Source: Sulfurimonas autotrophica DSM 16294
Lineage (GTDB): Bacteria > Campylobacterota > Campylobacteria > Campylobacterales > Sulfurimonadaceae
Length of the DNA: 64,000 bases
Assembly (NCBI RefSeq): GCF_000147355.1
Contig: NC_014506.1
Coordinates: 1,612,001-1,676,000 of the forward strand
Direction: 5' to 3'
A model generated the notes under the pieces. It made no database searches. It had not been told where the DNA came from and worked only from the letters and a program-made list of their open reading frames with translations. Below are positions 15,368 through 22,854 of the stretch, one piece after another (position 1 is the stretch's first letter; the number at the start of each line of letters is the position of its first letter). A program made the translations under genes and the position numbers.

Positions 15368-15725
15368 CGGCGGATTTATCGGAGCAATTTTACGCTCATA
15401 TATTAATGGTCTGATTTCTCATAGAGTACCGCATGAACTTCCATTCGGTACACTTGGTGTAAATCTGATAGGAAGCTTTATAATGGGTTGTCTTGTAGCC
15501 TATTTTATGTACTCAACTCTATTGACTCCGCATATGAAATCTTTTCTATCAACAGGAATTTTAGGAGCATTAACAACCTACTCTACTTTTGCGATAGAAA
15601 GTTTTTTACTTCTAGAGGGCGGCAGTATTGCACTGGGTCTTATGAATATGGCACTAAATGTTTTTGGTACAGTGTTTATGGCTGGAAGCGGCTATTATCT
15701 GATCAATCACTTTTTTAAATCTTAA
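15336..15725 (+). CDS. crcB: Fluoride channel CrcB/FluC
   Basis: 129 residues from the second of two close ATGs; AAAGG lies nine bases before it, whereas it is too close to the ATG at 15330. Small four-helix membrane protein that works as a dual-topology dimer to expel fluoride. Typical features: GSGGFIGAILRSY, the channel-lining GTLGVNLIGSFIMG and GILGALTTYSTFAIES. There is no fluoride riboswitch, because the start lies within plsC. Its 3' end overlaps the convergent ABC gene by 11 bp. Confidence 0.93.
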   Translation: MSWQTILAIGSGGFIGAILRSYINGLISHRVPHELPFGTLGVNLIGSFIMGCLVAYFMYSTLLTPHMKSFLSTGILGALTTYSTFAIESFLLLEGGSIALGLMNMALNVFGTVFMAGSGYYLINHFFKS

Positions 15726-16287
15726 TAATTTCATCCGCACACCATGATGCCAAATCCATATCATGAGTAATAAGCAGCATCCCCATAGAATCCAAATTTT
15801 TTATAAGCATCTTCATCACTTCAAGTTGAATCACATTGTCAAGTGCTGATGTCGGTTCATCCAGTAAAAGAAGTTGAGGCTGCATGAGCATAGCTCTGAC
15901 AATAGATGCACGTTGGAGCTGCCCACCTGAGAGTTCATGTGGAAGTTTTAAGAGTAAATTATATTCTAAGTTCATATTCTCTAAAAGAGATTCTAATTTA
16001 TGTAAGGGTGCTACATCTTTAATTTGATGTAGTAATGTATAACTTGGATGAAAAGAGCTGTAAGGGTCTTGAAAAATTTCAGCTACTCGCGATATTTTGA
16101 TACTGCCGCTTTGCGGTTTTAAATTCCCAAGTATAAGCTCAAAAAATGTACTTTTTCCTGCCCCACTATCTCCGACTATAGCTTTTAACTCACCTTGTTT
16201 TAAGAAAACAGAAAAATTTTCAAAAAGCAATTTTTCTTTTTTGTAGCCAAAAGTTAAATTTTTTACCTCCAATACATTATGCTTCAA
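15715..16287 (-). CDS. Orphan ABC-transporter ATPase of the oligopeptide/nickel type
   Basis: 190 residues. Walker A GDSGAGKST, the Q-loop (AEIFQDPYSSFHPSYTL, of the OppF/NikE kind), the signature LSGGQLQRA, Walker B LLLLDEPTSALD and the switch histidine in LLITHDMDLA are all intact, so it should hydrolyse ATP. It is shorter than most OppF/DppF proteins (about 260-330) because the C-terminal oligopeptide-binding extension is missing. No permease or binding protein lies next to it; the neighbour upstream is dUTPase (4 bp gap). Substrate unknown; a nickel, peptide or lipid system encoded elsewhere may supply the membrane part. Confidence 0.85.
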   Translation of the reverse strand: MKHNVLEVKNLTFGYKKEKLLFENFSVFLKQGELKAIVGDSGAGKSTFFELILGNLKPQSGSIKISRVAEIFQDPYSSFHPSYTLLHQIKDVAPLHKLESLLENMNLEYNLLLKLPHELSGGQLQRASIVRAMLMQPQLLLLDEPTSALDNVIQLEVMKMLIKNLDSMGMLLITHDMDLASWCADEIIKI

Positions 16288-16291
16288 AAAA

Positions 16292-16990
16292 TCAACTCTT
16301 AGTTAATGCAAGATAGGCTTTTTCTAATTTTTTATACAAAATATCTGGTGTAATATCACTGTTTTCTTCCCAGATTTTTTTCATAACTACGTTATCTTCA
16401 TCGCCGTTCCAGACCTTAATATAGGTCCCTTCTTTGTATCCATGATCTTGACGAAACTGATTTAAAATATTTTTTCCTACATATAGACGATAAAGTGTAT
16501 CTAAGTTCAAGCCGCTCATACTGACTAAATCAAAAAATTCCGATACCAATTCACCCAAATCAATTTCATCTTTTGATACAGCAATTCGTATAAGATTTTC
16601 CACTTTTTCAATTACATCTTCTTGTGATGCAAATTTTAATGTATCAGTTTGGATATTACTTAATGATTCCAGGGCTGAAATATCTATAGCTATATCTTCA
16701 ATACCACCTTTTAAATTTCTTTCATACACCTCAATTGCCAAACTCATTATAAAATGCCAGACATCAATGACTTCAATCTGATGATTTTGCCAATCAGGCT
16801 CTACATCTATGCTTTTCCAATGTTTCCAGCCAAAACTGTCCACCATTTCTGCACACTCCATATATATACAGCGTTTCCAGTTAATTGTTTTTCCATTTTT
16901 TGTCACGCCTTTTGTCCAATTTTCGCCATTGGTTGCATCATTGAGCTGATTTTGCAGCTGTAACATTAACAAAATTTTATTATCCATCAA
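16292..16990 (-). CDS. dut: Dimeric all-alpha dUTPase
   Basis: 232 residues. It hydrolyses dUTP to dUMP, protecting DNA and feeding thymidylate synthesis. It belongs to the all-alpha NTP-pyrophosphohydrolase family used by Campylobacter, not to the trimeric beta-sheet Dut. The metal-binding helices are visible as IYMECAEMVDSFGWKHWK (E-x-x-E/D pattern) and HQIEVIDVWHFIMS (E-x-x-D), separated from GLNLDTLYRLYVGKNILNQFRQDHGY in the last third, a family hallmark. Divergent from the 57-residue gene at 17071. Confidence 0.9.
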   Translation of the reverse strand: MMDNKILLMLQLQNQLNDATNGENWTKGVTKNGKTINWKRCIYMECAEMVDSFGWKHWKSIDVEPDWQNHQIEVIDVWHFIMSLAIEVYERNLKGGIEDIAIDISALESLSNIQTDTLKFASQEDVIEKVENLIRIAVSKDEIDLGELVSEFFDLVSMSGLNLDTLYRLYVGKNILNQFRQDHGYKEGTYIKVWNGDEDNVVMKKIWEENSDITPDILYKKLEKAYLALTKS

Positions 16991-17070: not shown

Positions 17071-17244
17071 ATGAAAAGAATTAATTGTAGAAAATGTGAC
17101 TATTATTATGTAACATGGGAAGCATCCAAACCGCATGGGTGTAAGGCTTACGGATTCAAGTCAGCACAAATTCCTTCTATAGTCGTTTTTAACAGCAGCG
17201 GAGCTGAATGCTCTTTGTTTAAGCCAAAGCAGATGAGTAAATAA
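17071..17244 (+). CDS. 57-residue cysteine-rich protein, probable zinc-binding
   Basis: A short gene (ATG 17071, TAA 17242-17244) with AGAGAG upstream. The protein is small and basic with four cysteines: Cys6-x2-Cys9, Cys24 and Cys47. CRKCDYYYVTWEASKPHGCK and the following AYGFKSAQIPS...SSGAECSLF match a short conserved protein I have seen in Campylobacterota and delta-proteobacteria, sometimes labelled as uracil-DNA-glycosylase-related without support. A four-cysteine zinc fold is the obvious reading. Its 3' end overlaps the convergent UPF0306 gene by 26 bp, unusually long for this region. Function unknown. Confidence 0.8.
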   Translation: MKRINCRKCDYYYVTWEASKPHGCKAYGFKSAQIPSIVVFNSSGAECSLFKPKQMSK

Positions 17245-17644
17245 TTTTTTTTCCAAAACCCAGTCTGTTATCAGTTAGTTTAAAATAATCAACTTTTATC
17301 TGCCATAGTTTTGGCATCATCGCCAACGCATATGGAAATCTTTTAAAATAGAATTTTTTTAAATTACTCTCATTGAGCAGTGTCATTGTTCCCTCAAACT
17401 GCAATCCCTCAATTTTTCCTATCTCTTGTGTTTCGAGAAAAATATTTCCGGCAACTGCAGAATTTTGTAATATATTTTTTACATGTAAAGTATCAACACT
17501 GCTTGCCACCACAAAAGAAAGCTTAGACTCATCATATGCATAAAACAGGCTGCAAACATTAGGTTTTTTCGTATCTGTTGTTGCCAAACTCATCACATGA
17601 TGCTTGGCAATAAAAGTTGATATTTTTGCTAAATCTTTACTCAT
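17219..17644 (-). CDS. PNPOx-like split-barrel protein (UPF0306/YhbP type)
   Basis: 141 residues. The start MSKDLAKISTFIAKHHVMSLATTDTKKPNVCSLFYAYD (N-terminal half) and the FEGTMTLL and WQIKVDYFKLTDN segments are typical of the pyridoxamine-phosphate-oxidase-like split barrels, most of which bind flavin; YhbP-type members have no assigned reaction. It is the last gene of the ovoA operon, its start overlapping the 82-residue gene stop by one base. That places a possible flavoprotein next to ovothiol synthesis, a redox cofactor pathway, which is why I flag it. Contains one TTACATGTAA (17479-17488). Confidence 0.8.
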   Translation of the reverse strand: MSKDLAKISTFIAKHHVMSLATTDTKKPNVCSLFYAYDESKLSFVVASSVDTLHVKNILQNSAVAGNIFLETQEIGKIEGLQFEGTMTLLNESNLKKFYFKRFPYALAMMPKLWQIKVDYFKLTDNRLGFGKKIIYSSALA

Positions 17645-17892
17645 TAATGTTTGTACATGAAACTTTCTAATTTTTCTGCATCCCTAATTTTACGTTTATT
17701 TAGCATCATTTTTGCAGTTTCATCGTCATCAAGCATGTCAAATATATCAAAAGGACTTGTCATATTATAATAACTCTTTATAAAATCCAGTAGTATTTCA
17801 AAGTTGTCTTTTTTTGTAGTATATTTTTTATACTCTTTATATTCAGTCCAATTTATATCAGCCAATCTGTCTCCTTTGTAATGCACTTTCAA
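17644..17892 (-). CDS. Small unknown protein in the ovothiol operon
   Basis: 82 residues, highly charged and rich in Lys, Asp and Tyr (WTEYKEYKKYTTKKDNFEIL, DMLDDDETAKMMLNKRK). No signal peptide, no membrane segment, and no family that I recognise. Its start lies 35 bp inside the PLP-lyase gene and its stop overlaps the next gene by one base, so it is read as part of a coupled four-gene set headed by ovoA. The heavy overlap on both sides is good support that it is translated. Function not known. Confidence 0.7.
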   Translation of the reverse strand: MKVHYKGDRLADINWTEYKEYKKYTTKKDNFEILLDFIKSYYNMTSPFDIFDMLDDDETAKMMLNKRKIRDAEKLESFMYKH

Positions 17893-19054
17893 GTCGTTGA
17901 ACTATCTCTGTCATTTTAGCAGAGCTAACAGCAAAATTCAAGCGCATAAAACCGCTGCCTTCTCTGCCAAAACTAATCCCAGGATTGAGCCCGAGTTTTG
18001 CTTCATTGATAAAAAAAGCGCGTAACTTTTTGTCTTTTAAACCCATACTGCGACAATCAATCCATGCCAAATAGGTTGCTTCAATTGGTGTTATTTTAAT
18101 AAACTGCGGATATTTTTTTGCGACTGCTTCGAGGAGTAAATAATTATTGTATAAATGACTTTTTAATGCTTCAAGCCACTCTTTTCCTTCTTTGTAGGCA
18201 GTTTCAAAAGCAACATGAGAAAGTGATGAACCTTGGGCGAAATGTACTCTGTCATATGCTTTTTTAAATTGCTCTTTAAGTTCTTTATTCTGTATAGCAA
18301 CACTGCTCATTGCAAAGCCTGCCATATTAAAAGTTTTTCCTACACCAAGCGCTGTCACAGTGATCTCCTTTGCTTTTTGACTTAGCGAAGCAAAAGCTAT
18401 ATGCTTGTTAGGTTTATAAACTAAATCTGAGTGTATTTCATCTGCAAAAACAACAATATTATGCTCCAAACAGATTGCCAATATTTCTTCCAATTCCTCT
18501 TTGCGCCATACTCTTCCAACCGGATTGTGAGGCGAGCATAGAAGTAGAAGTTTAGTATTTTCATTGATTTTTGCTTTAAAATCTTCTATATCGAAACTAT
18601 ATTTTCCCTCAGAATCAAGTTTAAGAGAATTTTTTACAAGTTTTCTGTTAAGTTTTAAAATACTGTGAAAAAATGGCGGATAAACAGGTGTTTGCACAAT
18701 CACACCCTCACCCTCTTTTGTAAAAGCTTCTATGCACGTATGCATGGATGCCACAACAGAATGAGAATAGAGCATATCTTCTAAATTAAAATCAATGTCA
18801 TGCTCTTTTTTCATCCACTCAATCTGCGCCATAAATGCCGACTTGGGTACTTCTTCATACCCCATTACAGGATGTTGGAGTCTTTTTTTGACAGCATCTA
18901 AAACACATTGCGGCGTGTCTATATCCATATCTGCCACCCATACCGGCAGAACATCTTGTGTACCAAAAAGTTCTTCTCTTAAAGTATACTTTTCCGCATT
19001 TGTTCCCTCACGTTCACTTGCTGTTGTAAAGCTGTATGTTAGCGCTTTTTCCAT
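17858..19054 (-). CDS. PLP-dependent C-S beta-lyase (MalY/PatB family), probable OvoB
   Basis: 398 residues, class I/II aminotransferase fold. Lys240 in GVGKTFNMAG is the PLP lysine; CSPHNPVGRVW and VVFADEIHSDL are the cofactor-binding motifs; LPVWVADMDI near the N-terminus and GISFGREGSGFMRLNF at the end are MalY/PatB signatures. Family members cleave C-S bonds in cystathionine or related thioethers. It overlaps ovoA by 16 bp. Ovothiol synthesis needs a PLP beta-lyase (OvoB) to cut the 5-histidylcysteine sulfoxide made by OvoA, so OvoB is the natural reading here. That assignment is inference from context; plain cystathionine beta-lyase (MetC-like) remains possible. Confidence 0.88.
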   Translation of the reverse strand: MEKALTYSFTTASEREGTNAEKYTLREELFGTQDVLPVWVADMDIDTPQCVLDAVKKRLQHPVMGYEEVPKSAFMAQIEWMKKEHDIDFNLEDMLYSHSVVASMHTCIEAFTKEGEGVIVQTPVYPPFFHSILKLNRKLVKNSLKLDSEGKYSFDIEDFKAKINENTKLLLLCSPHNPVGRVWRKEELEEILAICLEHNIVVFADEIHSDLVYKPNKHIAFASLSQKAKEITVTALGVGKTFNMAGFAMSSVAIQNKELKEQFKKAYDRVHFAQGSSLSHVAFETAYKEGKEWLEALKSHLYNNYLLLEAVAKKYPQFIKITPIEATYLAWIDCRSMGLKDKKLRAFFINEAKLGLNPGISFGREGSGFMRLNFAVSSAKMTEIVQRLESALQRRQIG

Positions 19055-21138
19055 ACACTCACCTGTGAAATAGTATGCTGATATTTTCTTGCCGTCTCTT
19101 TTATAACAAACTCTAAGTCTTCTACATGTAACAGGTCAAATTTTGCATCTAAAATACTTTTTAAACACTCAATTGTTTTTACCTCATTGCCGTTTCCATC
19201 TTTGTAACCGCCGAGCCAAAACTCTTTTTTCGTAGAGCTTTCCTGCCATGTATATGGAGATGTTAGCATCAAAATGCCATCATCATTGAGCCTTGCATCC
19301 ACTGTATCTAAAAAAAGTCTCGGGTTGTAGAGTCTGTCAATGAGATTTGTCGCCATTATAAGATCATAAGAATTAAAATTCGGTTTTAAATTACAAGCAT
19401 CGCCCTGCCAAAAAGAGACTTTATGCGCCAACTTTTCATACCCTAAATCCTGCAGGCTTACTTTTTTATTGACAGTGAGCTCACCCTCTTCTTTTGAACT
19501 AAAGGCAATATACCCCTCTTCTTTTAATTTAGAACCGACACTGACAAAACGCACAGAGAAGTCTAACCCCTCAACTTCGTCAAAAGTTTTTGCAAGCTCA
19601 TAACTCGCTCTCCCTGTTGCACAGCCTAAATCCAGTGCTTTTGTTTTGTTATGTGCATATTTATCAGCAATTTTTGCACATGAGACTGCAAAATTTTCAA
19701 CACCGAAATGTGTGTCACCGTATTGAAACTCACAATACTGCGAGATGAGTTCATCCGTTTCATAAATATCTTCACTTTTGTGCTGTGTGTTTGTTGTAAT
19801 AACGTATCGAAATCCGGCATTTTGAAAAAAATGTTTTCTAAAGGCATACCGAGAATGTTTCATTATCAAATTCCCGCTGCTTGCCCACGAAGAGCCTAAT
19901 ATGAGGGCATGCTTCTCATCAAAAGTAGGAATTGAAAAGTCATCATAGGCTTCATGCGCCTCAAAGCCTTTAAACCCCCGTATAGGAGTTCGGCTCCACT
20001 GCCAGACGTTCCCTATCACATCATAAATTCCATTGAAGCTAAACTCATCTACAGGACAGGATGAGGCATAATGATAAAAATTAATATTTGCCCGACTTTC
20101 ATGGAGCTCGGGAACATCTTTAAGATTTGAGTGCTGGTACACAAGTTCATATTCGGCTTCACTCGGCAGCGTATAATGACGGCTCTCTTTTCGGCTCTTA
20201 TACCTGCAAAACGCTTCCGCTTCTAAAGCATTCACATCCACGGGCCAATCCAGTGGCATATCTATAATTTTACTCAATGCCCGGTATTTAAAAGTTGTCT
20301 CTTCTTTTACCCAGAAATGCGGATATTTTACTTGAGATTTTTTTAAAAACTCCAATCCTTCTTCGTCCCAGAATTCTTCTCTCTCATAGCCGCTTTCATT
20401 GACAAACTCCATAAATTCGCCATTGCTTACTAGATATTTGGAAACCTGATAATCTTCTACAACCTCACTATAATCCCCATATTCATTATCCCATCCGTAT
20501 AGGTTATGTGTTTTATCTTTTCCCAATGTAACTTCGCCGCCGCTGATTGCTATCATTTCATTTTGAGGGGCATCTGAAGAATGCTTACATAAATTAAATT
20601 CAGGAACCTCTTTTATAAACTCGATTGGCATTTGACGATGCAGAACAAGTGAAGTTTCAATATGAATACGCTCATGTTCAATGCTCATCAGTATAATCCA
20701 CATAGAAGAGTCATCCCGTATCGGTAGTGTAAAATCCAAATGAATAATCAGCTCATCAACAAGTGTACGCACAGCATTTCGGTAAGCTCTAACTTCTGAA
20801 ACCTCAGGCCATTTATAATGACCTTCTTGCATGTCATCCCAGCTCATTTCATCCACGCCCACGGCAAAGATAGATTCAAATTCAGGGTTTATCCTCTCAT
20901 TAATTATCTTCATGTTGATAAGTTTGTTCACAAAAAAAGTCGCCGTATGCCCGAAATAAAATATCATCGGATGACGAGTCGGTTCACTCTTTTTATAAAA
21001 TACACTCTCATCTTTTAAGAGTTCAAATACTTTTTCAAACAAATCAAACGTATTATGAAAATACGCGCGTATCTCTTCACGTTTTTTTGCAATACTTTGA
21101 CCGTCGAGTGTTACGGGGTACATACTTAATTTACTCAA
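19039..21138 (-). CDS. ovoA: OvoA, 5-histidylcysteine sulfoxide synthase with methyltransferase domain
   Basis: 699 residues, the full OvoA architecture. Residues about 20-175 form the DinB-like domain with His64 (FGHTATFF) and the iron-binding pair His155/His159 in EHERIHIETS. Residues about 190-460 are the formylglycine-generating-enzyme-like domain (GGEVTLGKD, WPVDVNALEAEAFCRYKSR, GNVWQWSRTP, GFRYVI). Residues about 480-690 are a SAM methyltransferase (ALDLGCATGRASYELA, VSFWQGDACN, DLIMATNLIDRL). OvoA couples cysteine to histidine C5 with oxygen, and after beta-lyase cleavage methylates 5-thiohistidine to ovothiol A. It heads the overlapping operon with the beta-lyase at 17858-19054. Ovothiol is a redox thiol; the neighbours agree with a complete route. 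Confidence 0.95.
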   Translation of the reverse strand: MSKLSMYPVTLDGQSIAKKREEIRAYFHNTFDLFEKVFELLKDESVFYKKSEPTRHPMIFYFGHTATFFVNKLINMKIINERINPEFESIFAVGVDEMSWDDMQEGHYKWPEVSEVRAYRNAVRTLVDELIIHLDFTLPIRDDSSMWIILMSIEHERIHIETSLVLHRQMPIEFIKEVPEFNLCKHSSDAPQNEMIAISGGEVTLGKDKTHNLYGWDNEYGDYSEVVEDYQVSKYLVSNGEFMEFVNESGYEREEFWDEEGLEFLKKSQVKYPHFWVKEETTFKYRALSKIIDMPLDWPVDVNALEAEAFCRYKSRKESRHYTLPSEAEYELVYQHSNLKDVPELHESRANINFYHYASSCPVDEFSFNGIYDVIGNVWQWSRTPIRGFKGFEAHEAYDDFSIPTFDEKHALILGSSWASSGNLIMKHSRYAFRKHFFQNAGFRYVITTNTQHKSEDIYETDELISQYCEFQYGDTHFGVENFAVSCAKIADKYAHNKTKALDLGCATGRASYELAKTFDEVEGLDFSVRFVSVGSKLKEEGYIAFSSKEEGELTVNKKVSLQDLGYEKLAHKVSFWQGDACNLKPNFNSYDLIMATNLIDRLYNPRLFLDTVDARLNDDGILMLTSPYTWQESSTKKEFWLGGYKDGNGNEVKTIECLKSILDAKFDLLHVEDLEFVIKETARKYQHTISQVSVWKKR

Positions 21139-21185: not shown

Positions 21186-21252
21186 TTTTAGCTTTATAAT
21201 GGAGAGGCTCAGACCGAAGGGAGGATTCGTCCTCGGAATTACAAAGCTAAAA
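21186..21252. repeat. Palindromic intergenic element with UUCG-capped inner hairpin
   Basis: A 15-bp inverted repeat with one mismatch (21186-21200 and 21238-21252, TTTTAGCTTTRTAAT) encloses an inner hairpin GAGGA-TTCG-TCCTC (21221-21234). It lies between the divergent ovoA and pgeF genes. The architecture, an outer AT-rich stem around GC-rich inner stems, matches the element at 40134-40240, suggesting a family of repeated palindromes; it could also be a leader or terminator structure. Confidence 0.55.
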
Positions 21253-21296
21253 TGACGGCCACTAGTAATCACAACACCTTATGTTATAATCATTAT

Positions 21297-22019
21297 ATGA
21301 AATTTTATCAAAGTAAATTATTAAACAACTATCCAGAGCTGACACATGCCTTTACATGTAAGGAAAGTAACAACCTGGCTTTTCATGTCAATGATATAAA
21401 AAAGAATGTAATACAAAATCATATACAGTTGGCAAAAGAGCTCAAGTATGATTATAGAACACTCGTTCATATGAAACAAATCCACTCAAATATTGTAAAA
21501 ATAGTTGATAAAAATGATAATTTTGACAACCCTCTAACCTGTGATGCAGTGATAACAAATAAAAAACATATCCCTCTTATGGTTATGGTAGCAGACTGCT
21601 CCCCTCTGCTCTTTTTTGACCCTGTACAAAATGTCATCGCAGCAGTACATGCAGGCAAAGCGGGAGCCTTTGGAAACATTATTCAAAATGTTATAAAGAG
21701 TTTTACAAACGATTTTTACTCTGTGCCAAAAGATATTATAGTAAGCATAGGTCCTGCTATTTGTCAAAACTGTTATGAAGTCGATGATGAGATTTATCAA
21801 GAGGCAAAAGAACTTAAACTTGATTATGCTGTTGAAAAAAAAGATGAAAAATTCTATTTGGACATTAAAGCAATTTTGCGAGAACAGTTACATGTAATGG
21901 GCATAGAAGAGAAAAATATTGAAATATCTTCTCTTTGTAACTGCTGCCATGCAGATACATTTTATTCCTACAGAAAAAATAACAACACGGGAAGATTTGC
22001 CGGTGTTATAATGCTTTAA
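21297..22019 (+). CDS. pgeF: Peptidoglycan-editing / laccase-domain protein PgeF (YfiH family)
   Basis: 240 residues from the ATG at 21297; the upstream in-frame part (21252 on) runs through the hairpin repeat and is not credible. The YfiH family has a zinc site built from His and Cys residues: VHMKQIHSNIV, VADCSPLLFFD, AVHAGKAGAFGNI and the C-terminal CNCCHADTFYSYRKNNNTGRFAG. Family members have polyphenol-oxidase-like activity and, in E. coli, correct wrongly incorporated residues in peptidoglycan. Ends in TTAA shared with the stop of the convergent Rrf2 gene. Contains two TTACATGTAA copies (21352 and 21888). Confidence 0.9.
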   Translation: MKFYQSKLLNNYPELTHAFTCKESNNLAFHVNDIKKNVIQNHIQLAKELKYDYRTLVHMKQIHSNIVKIVDKNDNFDNPLTCDAVITNKKHIPLMVMVADCSPLLFFDPVQNVIAAVHAGKAGAFGNIIQNVIKSFTNDFYSVPKDIIVSIGPAICQNCYEVDDEIYQEAKELKLDYAVEKKDEKFYLDIKAILREQLHVMGIEEKNIEISSLCNCCHADTFYSYRKNNNTGRFAGVIML

Positions 22020-22420
22020 ATCTCGTAAAAATATGTCGCATAAGCACGGTCAAGTTCAGATAATTTTATATTAAAAACTGCTCTGACTTTCTCTTGAATA
22101 TCCTTCCAAAATGAATCTAAAACCACACTCGCACCCACATTTTGAGAAACAGTGAAAAGTTCCCCCTCCAAAGCTTCAACAACATCCAAAACTATAATTT
22201 TAGAAGCATCGGATGCCAATTTATATCCGCCGTTTGCCCCTCTTACACTTATTACGAAGCCGTGTTTTTTTAAAGTTGAGAGAATCTGTTCAAGATAGCC
22301 GTGTGATATTTGTGTAACTGCGGCTATCTCTTTAATCTGCATCAGTTTATTTCTTGGAGAGTTATACAGGGCATGCATTGCTGCAACACCGTAGAGACTT
22401 TTCGTAGAAACACCGACCAT
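22016..22420 (-). CDS. Rrf2-family transcriptional regulator without iron-sulfur cysteines
   Basis: 134 residues with the N-terminal winged helix: VSTKSLYGVAAMHALY, IKEIAAVTQISHGYLEQIL, KKHGFVISVRGANGGYKLA, all typical Rrf2. IscR, NsrR and RirA carry three cysteines for a cluster; this protein has none, so it is closer to CymR-type Rrf2 regulators that respond by protein-protein contact or other ligands. It starts one base into the DUF4395 stop (TGATG), so the two form a pair. The dyad in the shared promoter (22860-22896) suggests autoregulation. Target pathway unknown. Confidence 0.92.
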   Translation of the reverse strand: MVGVSTKSLYGVAAMHALYNSPRNKLMQIKEIAAVTQISHGYLEQILSTLKKHGFVISVRGANGGYKLASDASKIIVLDVVEALEGELFTVSQNVGASVVLDSFWKDIQEKVRAVFNIKLSELDRAYATYFYEI

Positions 22421-22854
22421 CAGACAACAAACCTTTTATACAGGTAATATATTTTACAGCCCATACAGTAATCAAATGCAAGTTCCAAGAACAAACATAC
22501 TAAAAGTATGGCACTTGTTATATAAAAAAGAGTCTCTGCATGTAACAAGTCAAACAACAAAATCAAAACTAAAAATAAAAAACCAAAGTACGTTGCTAAT
22601 GTCTTGGGTGCATTATCTTCAAGCTTGCTCTTTACATGTAAGAGCTCTTTTGTTCTTGAAGATATAAAATATAAAGGACTGTAACTTTTACTTACAAAAA
22701 GTCTTATGGAAAAATCCGCTATTAAAAAAAGTATAATAAATTTATTGAATGTCATTAGATAAAGACTCACAAGCAGTAAAATGTAAAATGCATTTATTCT
22801 TACAATATTAGCATCAATCTTTATAAATGAAACGGGACAGGATTTTTGACTCAT
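22420..22854 (-). CDS. DUF4395-family membrane protein
   Basis: 144 residues with four probable membrane helices. The N-terminus has CPVSFIKIDANIVRINAFY and the C-terminus the CMGCKIYYLY motif, both diagnostic of DUF4395 proteins, whose members often sit near rhodanese or sulfur-related genes and the conserved cysteines are thought to be redox-active. It forms a pair with the Rrf2 regulator downstream. It begins 73 bp after the dxs stop, behind its own promoter. One TTACATGTAA lies in it (22632-22641). Function not established. Confidence 0.85.
   Translation of the reverse strand: MSQKSCPVSFIKIDANIVRINAFYILLLVSLYLMTFNKFIILFLIADFSIRLFVSKSYSPLYFISSRTKELLHVKSKLEDNAPKTLATYFGFLFLVLILLFDLLHAETLFYITSAILLVCLFLELAFDYCMGCKIYYLYKRFVV

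Follow-up and report, generated by a model that had tools for sequence, protein, structure and literature searches.

A probable ovoA-ovoB cassette with two separable neighbour genes in Sulfurimonas autotrophica DSM 16294

Four overlapping open reading frames (ORFs), of which ovoA is the first, form a string in Sulfurimonas autotrophica DSM 16294, and they raise the question of whether all four serve the making of ovothiol or whether only some of them do. The window analysed here is the whole stretch of 64,000 nucleotides that runs from 1612001 to 1676000 in a genome of 2,153,198 bases on one contig, and coordinates below are counted from its first letter. The original prediction had read the string as a complete ovothiol operon, in which a PLP-dependent lyase provides OvoB and the two last genes may use or regulate the thiol. 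We consider it highly probable that the locus is an ovoA-ovoB cassette, and that the genes for a 73-residue protein and for a split-barrel protein are neighbours with no part in making the thiol. According to the available sections of two publications, the three-enzyme ovothiol pathway and OvoB are already established (PMC12631010, PMC9103826), and, according to the summary in a review, bacterial OvoA and OvoB were the subject of a 2021 survey (doi 10.1093/gbe/evab169). In the mechanism proposed for the present locus, OvoA would join histidine and cysteine with O2 to give 5-histidylcysteine sulfoxide, the PatB-family lyase would remove the cysteinyl part to leave 5-thiohistidine, and the C-terminal domain of OvoA would methylate the latter to ovothiol A. 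The ORF listing placed all four frames on the minus strand, at the coordinates originally given for them, and the features of the locus are as follows.

21252-22019, plus strand: pgeF, divergent upstream neighbour of ovoA (TIGR00726, over cut-off)
22016-22854, minus strand: genes for an Rrf2-family regulator and a DUF4395 protein, lying upstream of pgeF (profile matches)
19039-21138, minus strand: ovoA, predicted 5-histidylcysteine sulfoxide synthase with C-terminal 5-thiohistidine N-methyltransferase, 699 aa, TTG start (TIGR04344, TIGR04345)
19039-19054, minus strand: overlap of the ovoA end and the lyase start, 16 bases
17858-19054, minus strand: candidate ovoB, PatB-family PLP C-S lyase, 398 aa, ATG start (TIGR04350)
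17644-17865, minus strand: first passenger gene, predicted all-helical protein, 73 aa with the probable corrected start (uncorrected ORF 17644-17892, 82 aa)
17219-17644, minus strand: second passenger gene, YhbP-like split barrel (FMN/heme/F420-binding fold), 141 aa (PF01243)
17071-17244, plus strand: small ORF of 57 aa at the end of the string, convergent with the second passenger gene; recurs in relatives
16292-16990, minus strand: dut (dUTPase_2, PF08761), in the block that the second passenger gene accompanies (synteny in G015 and G027)
15715-16287, minus strand: ABC transporter ATPase of the dut block (PF00005; synteny)

The overlaps of 16 bases between ovoA and the lyase gene, and of one base between the third and fourth genes, are as originally described. 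Since the lyase gene begins inside the last bases of ovoA, translational coupling of the two genes is probable, and they would presumably be co-transcribed as well; a promoter scan returned 24 sites, where shuffled sequence led us to expect 15.1, pointed to no clear promoter and was set aside. The third gene had been described as encoding 82 residues and overlapping the lyase gene by 35 bp, which probably reflects a wrong start. The TTG at 17865 is preceded by AAAGGAG, and the script that picked starts at 31 homologous loci placed 29 of them within a residue or two of the equivalent position (the other two being longer); because of this ribosome-binding sequence and of the homologues that begin there, 17865 is the probable start. 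We therefore replaced the start at 17892 by that TTG, which gives 73 residues and an overlap of eight bases. At the other end of the string, the 57-aa ORF contains several cysteines and overlaps the end of the barrel gene; it recurs at 11 of the 14 OvoA loci mapped in the same genus (L060-L073), as well as in genomes G015, G027 and G010. Upstream, pgeF holds the same position at 10 of those 14 loci. The Rrf2-family and DUF4395 genes are present in L240, but do not lie between dxs and pgeF at the other same-genus loci mapped.

The original assignment of OvoA to 19039-21138 is borne out by scores that leave chance aside: the protein reaches 642 bits against TIGR04344 (sulfoxide-synthase domain, curated cut-off 400) and 322 bits against TIGR04345 (methyltransferase domain, curated cut-off 170), and the solved OvoA 8khq aligns to its residues 3-698 with 829 bits. 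Among 11 Campylobacterota OvoAs, residues H64, H155 and H159 are invariant and pair with histidines in 8khq, and D503, G505 and C506 are invariant in the same set. We take the three histidines to be the iron-binding ones. With both domains above their cut-offs, the enzyme is predicted to catalyze 5-histidylcysteine sulfoxide synthesis as well as 5-thiohistidine methylation.

The second protein scores 574 bits against TIGR04350 (PatB, cut-off 340), and its best solved chains, 4dgt and PatB 6qp3, match it over the full length. Among 120 aligned lyases, the PLP lysine K240 as well as N177 and D205 are kept in all, and R371 in 119. The likeness to the PatB C-S lyases extends over the full length and includes the PLP lysine along with further active-site residues. 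It differs from 6qp3 and 4dgt in one motif, where the window lyase reads CSPHNP and those two CNPHNP. As the solved members of the PatB subfamily are named cystathionine or cysteine-conjugate beta-lyases, this protein could instead be a general lyase of that kind, working in methionine synthesis or sulfur salvage and merely sited behind ovoA. In a phylum sample of 298 genomes, where OvoA occurs in 67 (as a fragment only in G058), a PatB-family lyase at 1e-30 was found in 67/67 genomes with OvoA, which speaks for OvoB, and in 75/231 without it, which suits the general reading.

The distribution within the family tells against a general lyase. We sampled 200 genomes of the family coded f1, which we take to be the Sulfurimonadaceae; 137 of them were good (at least 90% complete and at most 5% contaminated) and 63 poorer, and presence was called at 1e-30 for OvoA and the lyase, 1e-10 for the barrel and 1e-4 for the small gene. 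OvoA is present in 133 of the good genomes and the lyase in 131, with both in 131 and neither in four (G010, G015, G027 and G429), so that the lyase is absent from every good genome that lacks OvoA. Two good genomes (G304 and G432) have OvoA without a lyase at this threshold, and none has the lyase without OvoA. Among the poorer genomes, 13/63 show no OvoA, of which two incomplete ones (G306 and G438) show the lyase. On a tree of the neighbouring genes (38 loci, 35 of them different; a quick method with SH-aLRT support only, G429 not being on it), OvoA and the lyase each change three times, and at the same three loci, with presence read from the fetched stretches except in G357, where both were set as present by hand. 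One of these joint absences is in G027, whose close relative G037 has both genes. We read the three joint changes as losses; G010 stands on a long branch, and primary absence is possible there. Moreover, a profile search found an O-acetylhomoserine sulfhydrylase over cut-off encoded elsewhere in the S. autotrophica genome, so the lyase is no evident requirement for making methionine, and a methionine role for it is unlikely.

Adjacency of the two genes points in the same direction. Rather than always standing elsewhere beside methionine genes, an arrangement named at the outset as one that would speak against OvoB, the lyase lies directly behind OvoA in 35 of the 67 phylum genomes with OvoA (32 by hit coordinates and three by ORF map); it is near with inserts in 3/67 and elsewhere in 29/67, including family f10, where it is not near OvoA in any of 16 genomes. 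The lyase region was mapped in nine of the 29 genomes with the lyase apart (G190, G287, G061, G145, G176, G206, G290, G237 and G058), and a methionine gene may yet lie beside the lyase in some of the 29. At 91 loci with both genes on one strand (starts chosen by script, some loci being the same genome twice), 82 have the lyase start no more than 77 bases from the OvoA stop, 38 of the 91 show an overlap of exactly 16 bases, and nine have the lyase 1.1-4.4 kb away. Within the best 80 named OvoA loci, it is adjacent in 47, six carry it on the same strand at a distance of 1.7-4.4 kb, and it was not seen in the fetched stretch at 27, five of which reach less than 600 bases behind OvoA. Adjacency extends to 15 of 33 named loci with titles outside Campylobacterota (hand list), including Nitrosomonas, Nitrosospira, Sulfuricella, Geomonas and Halothiobacillus; the annotations of two enterobacterial plasmids (Ewingella and Rahnella) show no lyase next to ovoA. 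On balance, ovoA and the lyase gene are the only pair seen held together.

The joint between ovoA and the lyase gene tolerates insertions in some relatives. In the three cases examined, the inserts are a C5-methylase in G126, a KilA-N protein and an unknown gene in G185, and an NgoPII-type endonuclease accompanied by a related C5-methylase and one unknown gene in G199; in L069, a four-gene set lies between the lyase and barrel genes. The region (L062, L064, L065 and L069) may be an insertion hotspot.

A tree of the lyases themselves also speaks against a general enzyme. The tree was built by a quick method with SH-aLRT support only, excluded two short lyases and shows very long branches for L137 and some others. 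The window lyase falls inside a clade of 53 rows (SH-aLRT 100), every one of which comes from a genome with OvoA, while 10 of the 17 lyases of OvoA-free genomes form another clade (SH-aLRT 98). Six lyases of OvoA-free genomes (L115, L116, L117, L124, L135 and L136) are placed among those of OvoA genomes, and the four sampled from family f10 lie in another clade, in the company of Geomonas and an OvoA-free genome. Residue 174 follows a similar pattern: it is serine in 85/90 lyases counted as adjacent (that is, sharing a fetched stretch and strand with OvoA, eight of the 90 having inserts), in 9/13 unlinked lyases of OvoA genomes and in 6/17 from OvoA-free genomes, and asparagine in 10/17 of the latter as well as in chains 4dgt and 6qp3. 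Ser174, within CSPHNP, is a weak candidate for a specificity marker of OvoA-linked lyases. Pro127 had also been considered as an OvoB marker and was dropped, as 4dgt and 6qp3 read PF there too.

Altogether, co-occurrence with OvoA, joint loss, adjacency in several phyla, membership of a clade of lyases from OvoA genomes and a separate methionine enzyme favour the lyase as candidate OvoB, as originally proposed. We regard the general beta-lyase reading as very improbable, and the PatB-family lyase, judged from its sequence and its company, is very probably the natural OvoB, with 5-histidylcysteine sulfoxide as its presumed substrate.

The two genes that follow are a different matter. The fourth gene had been assigned a split-barrel type, and this assignment is upheld: the protein scores 30.4 bits against PF01243 (cut-off 28.1) and 106 bits against NF002900, below its cut-off of 176, so that it shares fold and broad family with the YhbP-like split barrels. 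No PDB match was found by sequence; its predicted structure (pLDDT 92.6) comes closest to 5bnc in the PDB (E 8e-9, with a TM of 0.81 normalized to query length), which supports an FMN/heme split-barrel fold for the model. The third protein is less readily placed. Its 82-aa form had no Pfam match with an E of 1 or less and no NCBIfam family over cut-off, and one PHROGs match had an E of 0.36. The model has five helices (pLDDT 93.4), and one fold search returned three PDB matches, all with E above 7, and a second one none at Z 2, hence no credible match. Within the phylum sample, confident matches to this protein come from one family only, in which OvoA is nearly universal; four matches outside that family (E 0.0026-0.008) were taken as chance.

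The case for one functional unit of four genes, in which the small and split-barrel proteins would use, recycle or regulate ovothiol, rests on gene order and on part of the distribution of the small gene. The four-gene order is unbroken in 13 of the 16 same-genus genomes of at most five contigs (hand count; the exceptions being G251, G357 and G365). The small gene, present in 85 of the 137 good family genomes, occurs in 84/133 of those with OvoA and in 1/4 of those without it (G010, the other three lacking it), and on the neighbour-gene tree two of the three OvoA-free loci also lack it. Against this, the small gene is missing from 49/133 good OvoA genomes and changes six times on the tree. It stands alone and elsewhere in G358, G392 and G304, and it is found with the barrel gene and no cassette nearby in three other genomes: in G010 it overlaps the barrel gene by four bases, in a genome with neither OvoA nor lyase; in G300 one ORF lies between the two; and in G357 both keep their place beside dut, with ovoA and the lyase gene on a different contig. 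In G425 and G440, the barrel gene is gone and the small gene is still behind the lyase gene.

The barrel gene is not tied to OvoA either. It is retained in all four good family genomes without OvoA, and in the phylum sample it is no commoner with OvoA (39/67 genomes) than without it (143/231; hand count). Two events on the neighbour-gene tree are losses of the barrel gene without the other genes. Moreover, G015 and G027, both devoid of ovoA and the lyase gene, keep the order barrel gene, 57-aa ORF, dut and ABC transporter gene, while in G429 the barrel gene adjoins dxs. The barrel gene travels with the dut-ABC block and not with ovoA and the lyase gene. Each passenger can thus be parted from the ovoA-lyase pair as well as from the other passenger, and the barrel persists in the good genomes without OvoA, so that the part of the original prediction that made the four genes a functional unit did not survive, while its reading of the lyase as OvoB did. 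Given this pattern of presence and absence, together with the relocations, we rejected the four-gene unit, which we hold to be quite improbable. A narrower version, in which the 73-aa helical protein, whose gene mostly goes with the cassette, would be an ovothiol accessory (e.g., by partnering or regulating the lyase) and the barrel would not, seems to us improbable too, if slightly less so. The reading that we prefer is that of an ovoA-ovoB cassette with two neighbours.

Relatives differ in the methyltransferase part of OvoA. In the sister genus g5 of the same family, the OvoAs of G132 and G175 have no methyltransferase domain, while that of G216 keeps a diverged one; in G175, an OvoM-like methyltransferase domain is fused behind an ADP-ribosylglycohydrolase (L243:8377-10218). 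Among six further g5 genomes, chosen for having at least two OvoA matches each (G349, G350, G351, G354, G356 and G404; L244-L251), five have the methyltransferase and the ADP-ribosylglycohydrolase next to each other or in one frame interrupted by a single stop, and the sixth, G356, has them on different contigs. Elsewhere, the methyltransferase end of OvoA is shortened or has diverged in L105, L106, L107, L078 and L079; of these, L105, L106 and L079 were tested and score below the TIGR04345 cut-off, and L238:7609-8958 has no TIGR04345 methyltransferase domain. The link between methyltransferase and ADP-ribosylglycohydrolase is more surprising than the ovoA-ovoB cassette, and is a possible hint of a further ovothiol-related reaction.

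The order of ovoA followed by a PatB-family lyase gene is not new, as it is visible in a public annotation: a Sulfurovum mangrovi plasmid (NZ_CP087125.1) carries ovoA and then a gene annotated as PatB family C-S lyase. That pair differs from the present one in having yajC-secD-secF-DUF6394 and dacB as neighbours, and no passengers. By enzyme type only, the cassette is like the Erwinia tasmaniensis OvoA/OvoB system, a two-domain OvoA with a PLP beta-lyase, as presented in the available sections of PMC9103826; those of PMC12631010 describe another OvoA cluster in which several neighbours are unlinked to thiohistidine. Among the open-access papers searched, ovothiol and Sulfurimonas appeared together only in a review citing the S. 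hongkongensis genome paper, and the word ovothiol is absent from a comparative paper on Sulfurimonas.

Overall, these results show how poorly a tight gene overlap in a single genome predicts shared function, as the passengers proved separable across 200 relatives. They also make a good genetic case, at the scale of a whole family, for one PatB-family lyase dedicated to ovothiol. Since the lyase is gone wherever OvoA is gone from good genomes, Sulfurimonas would offer a clean setting for tests of OvoB in the native host.
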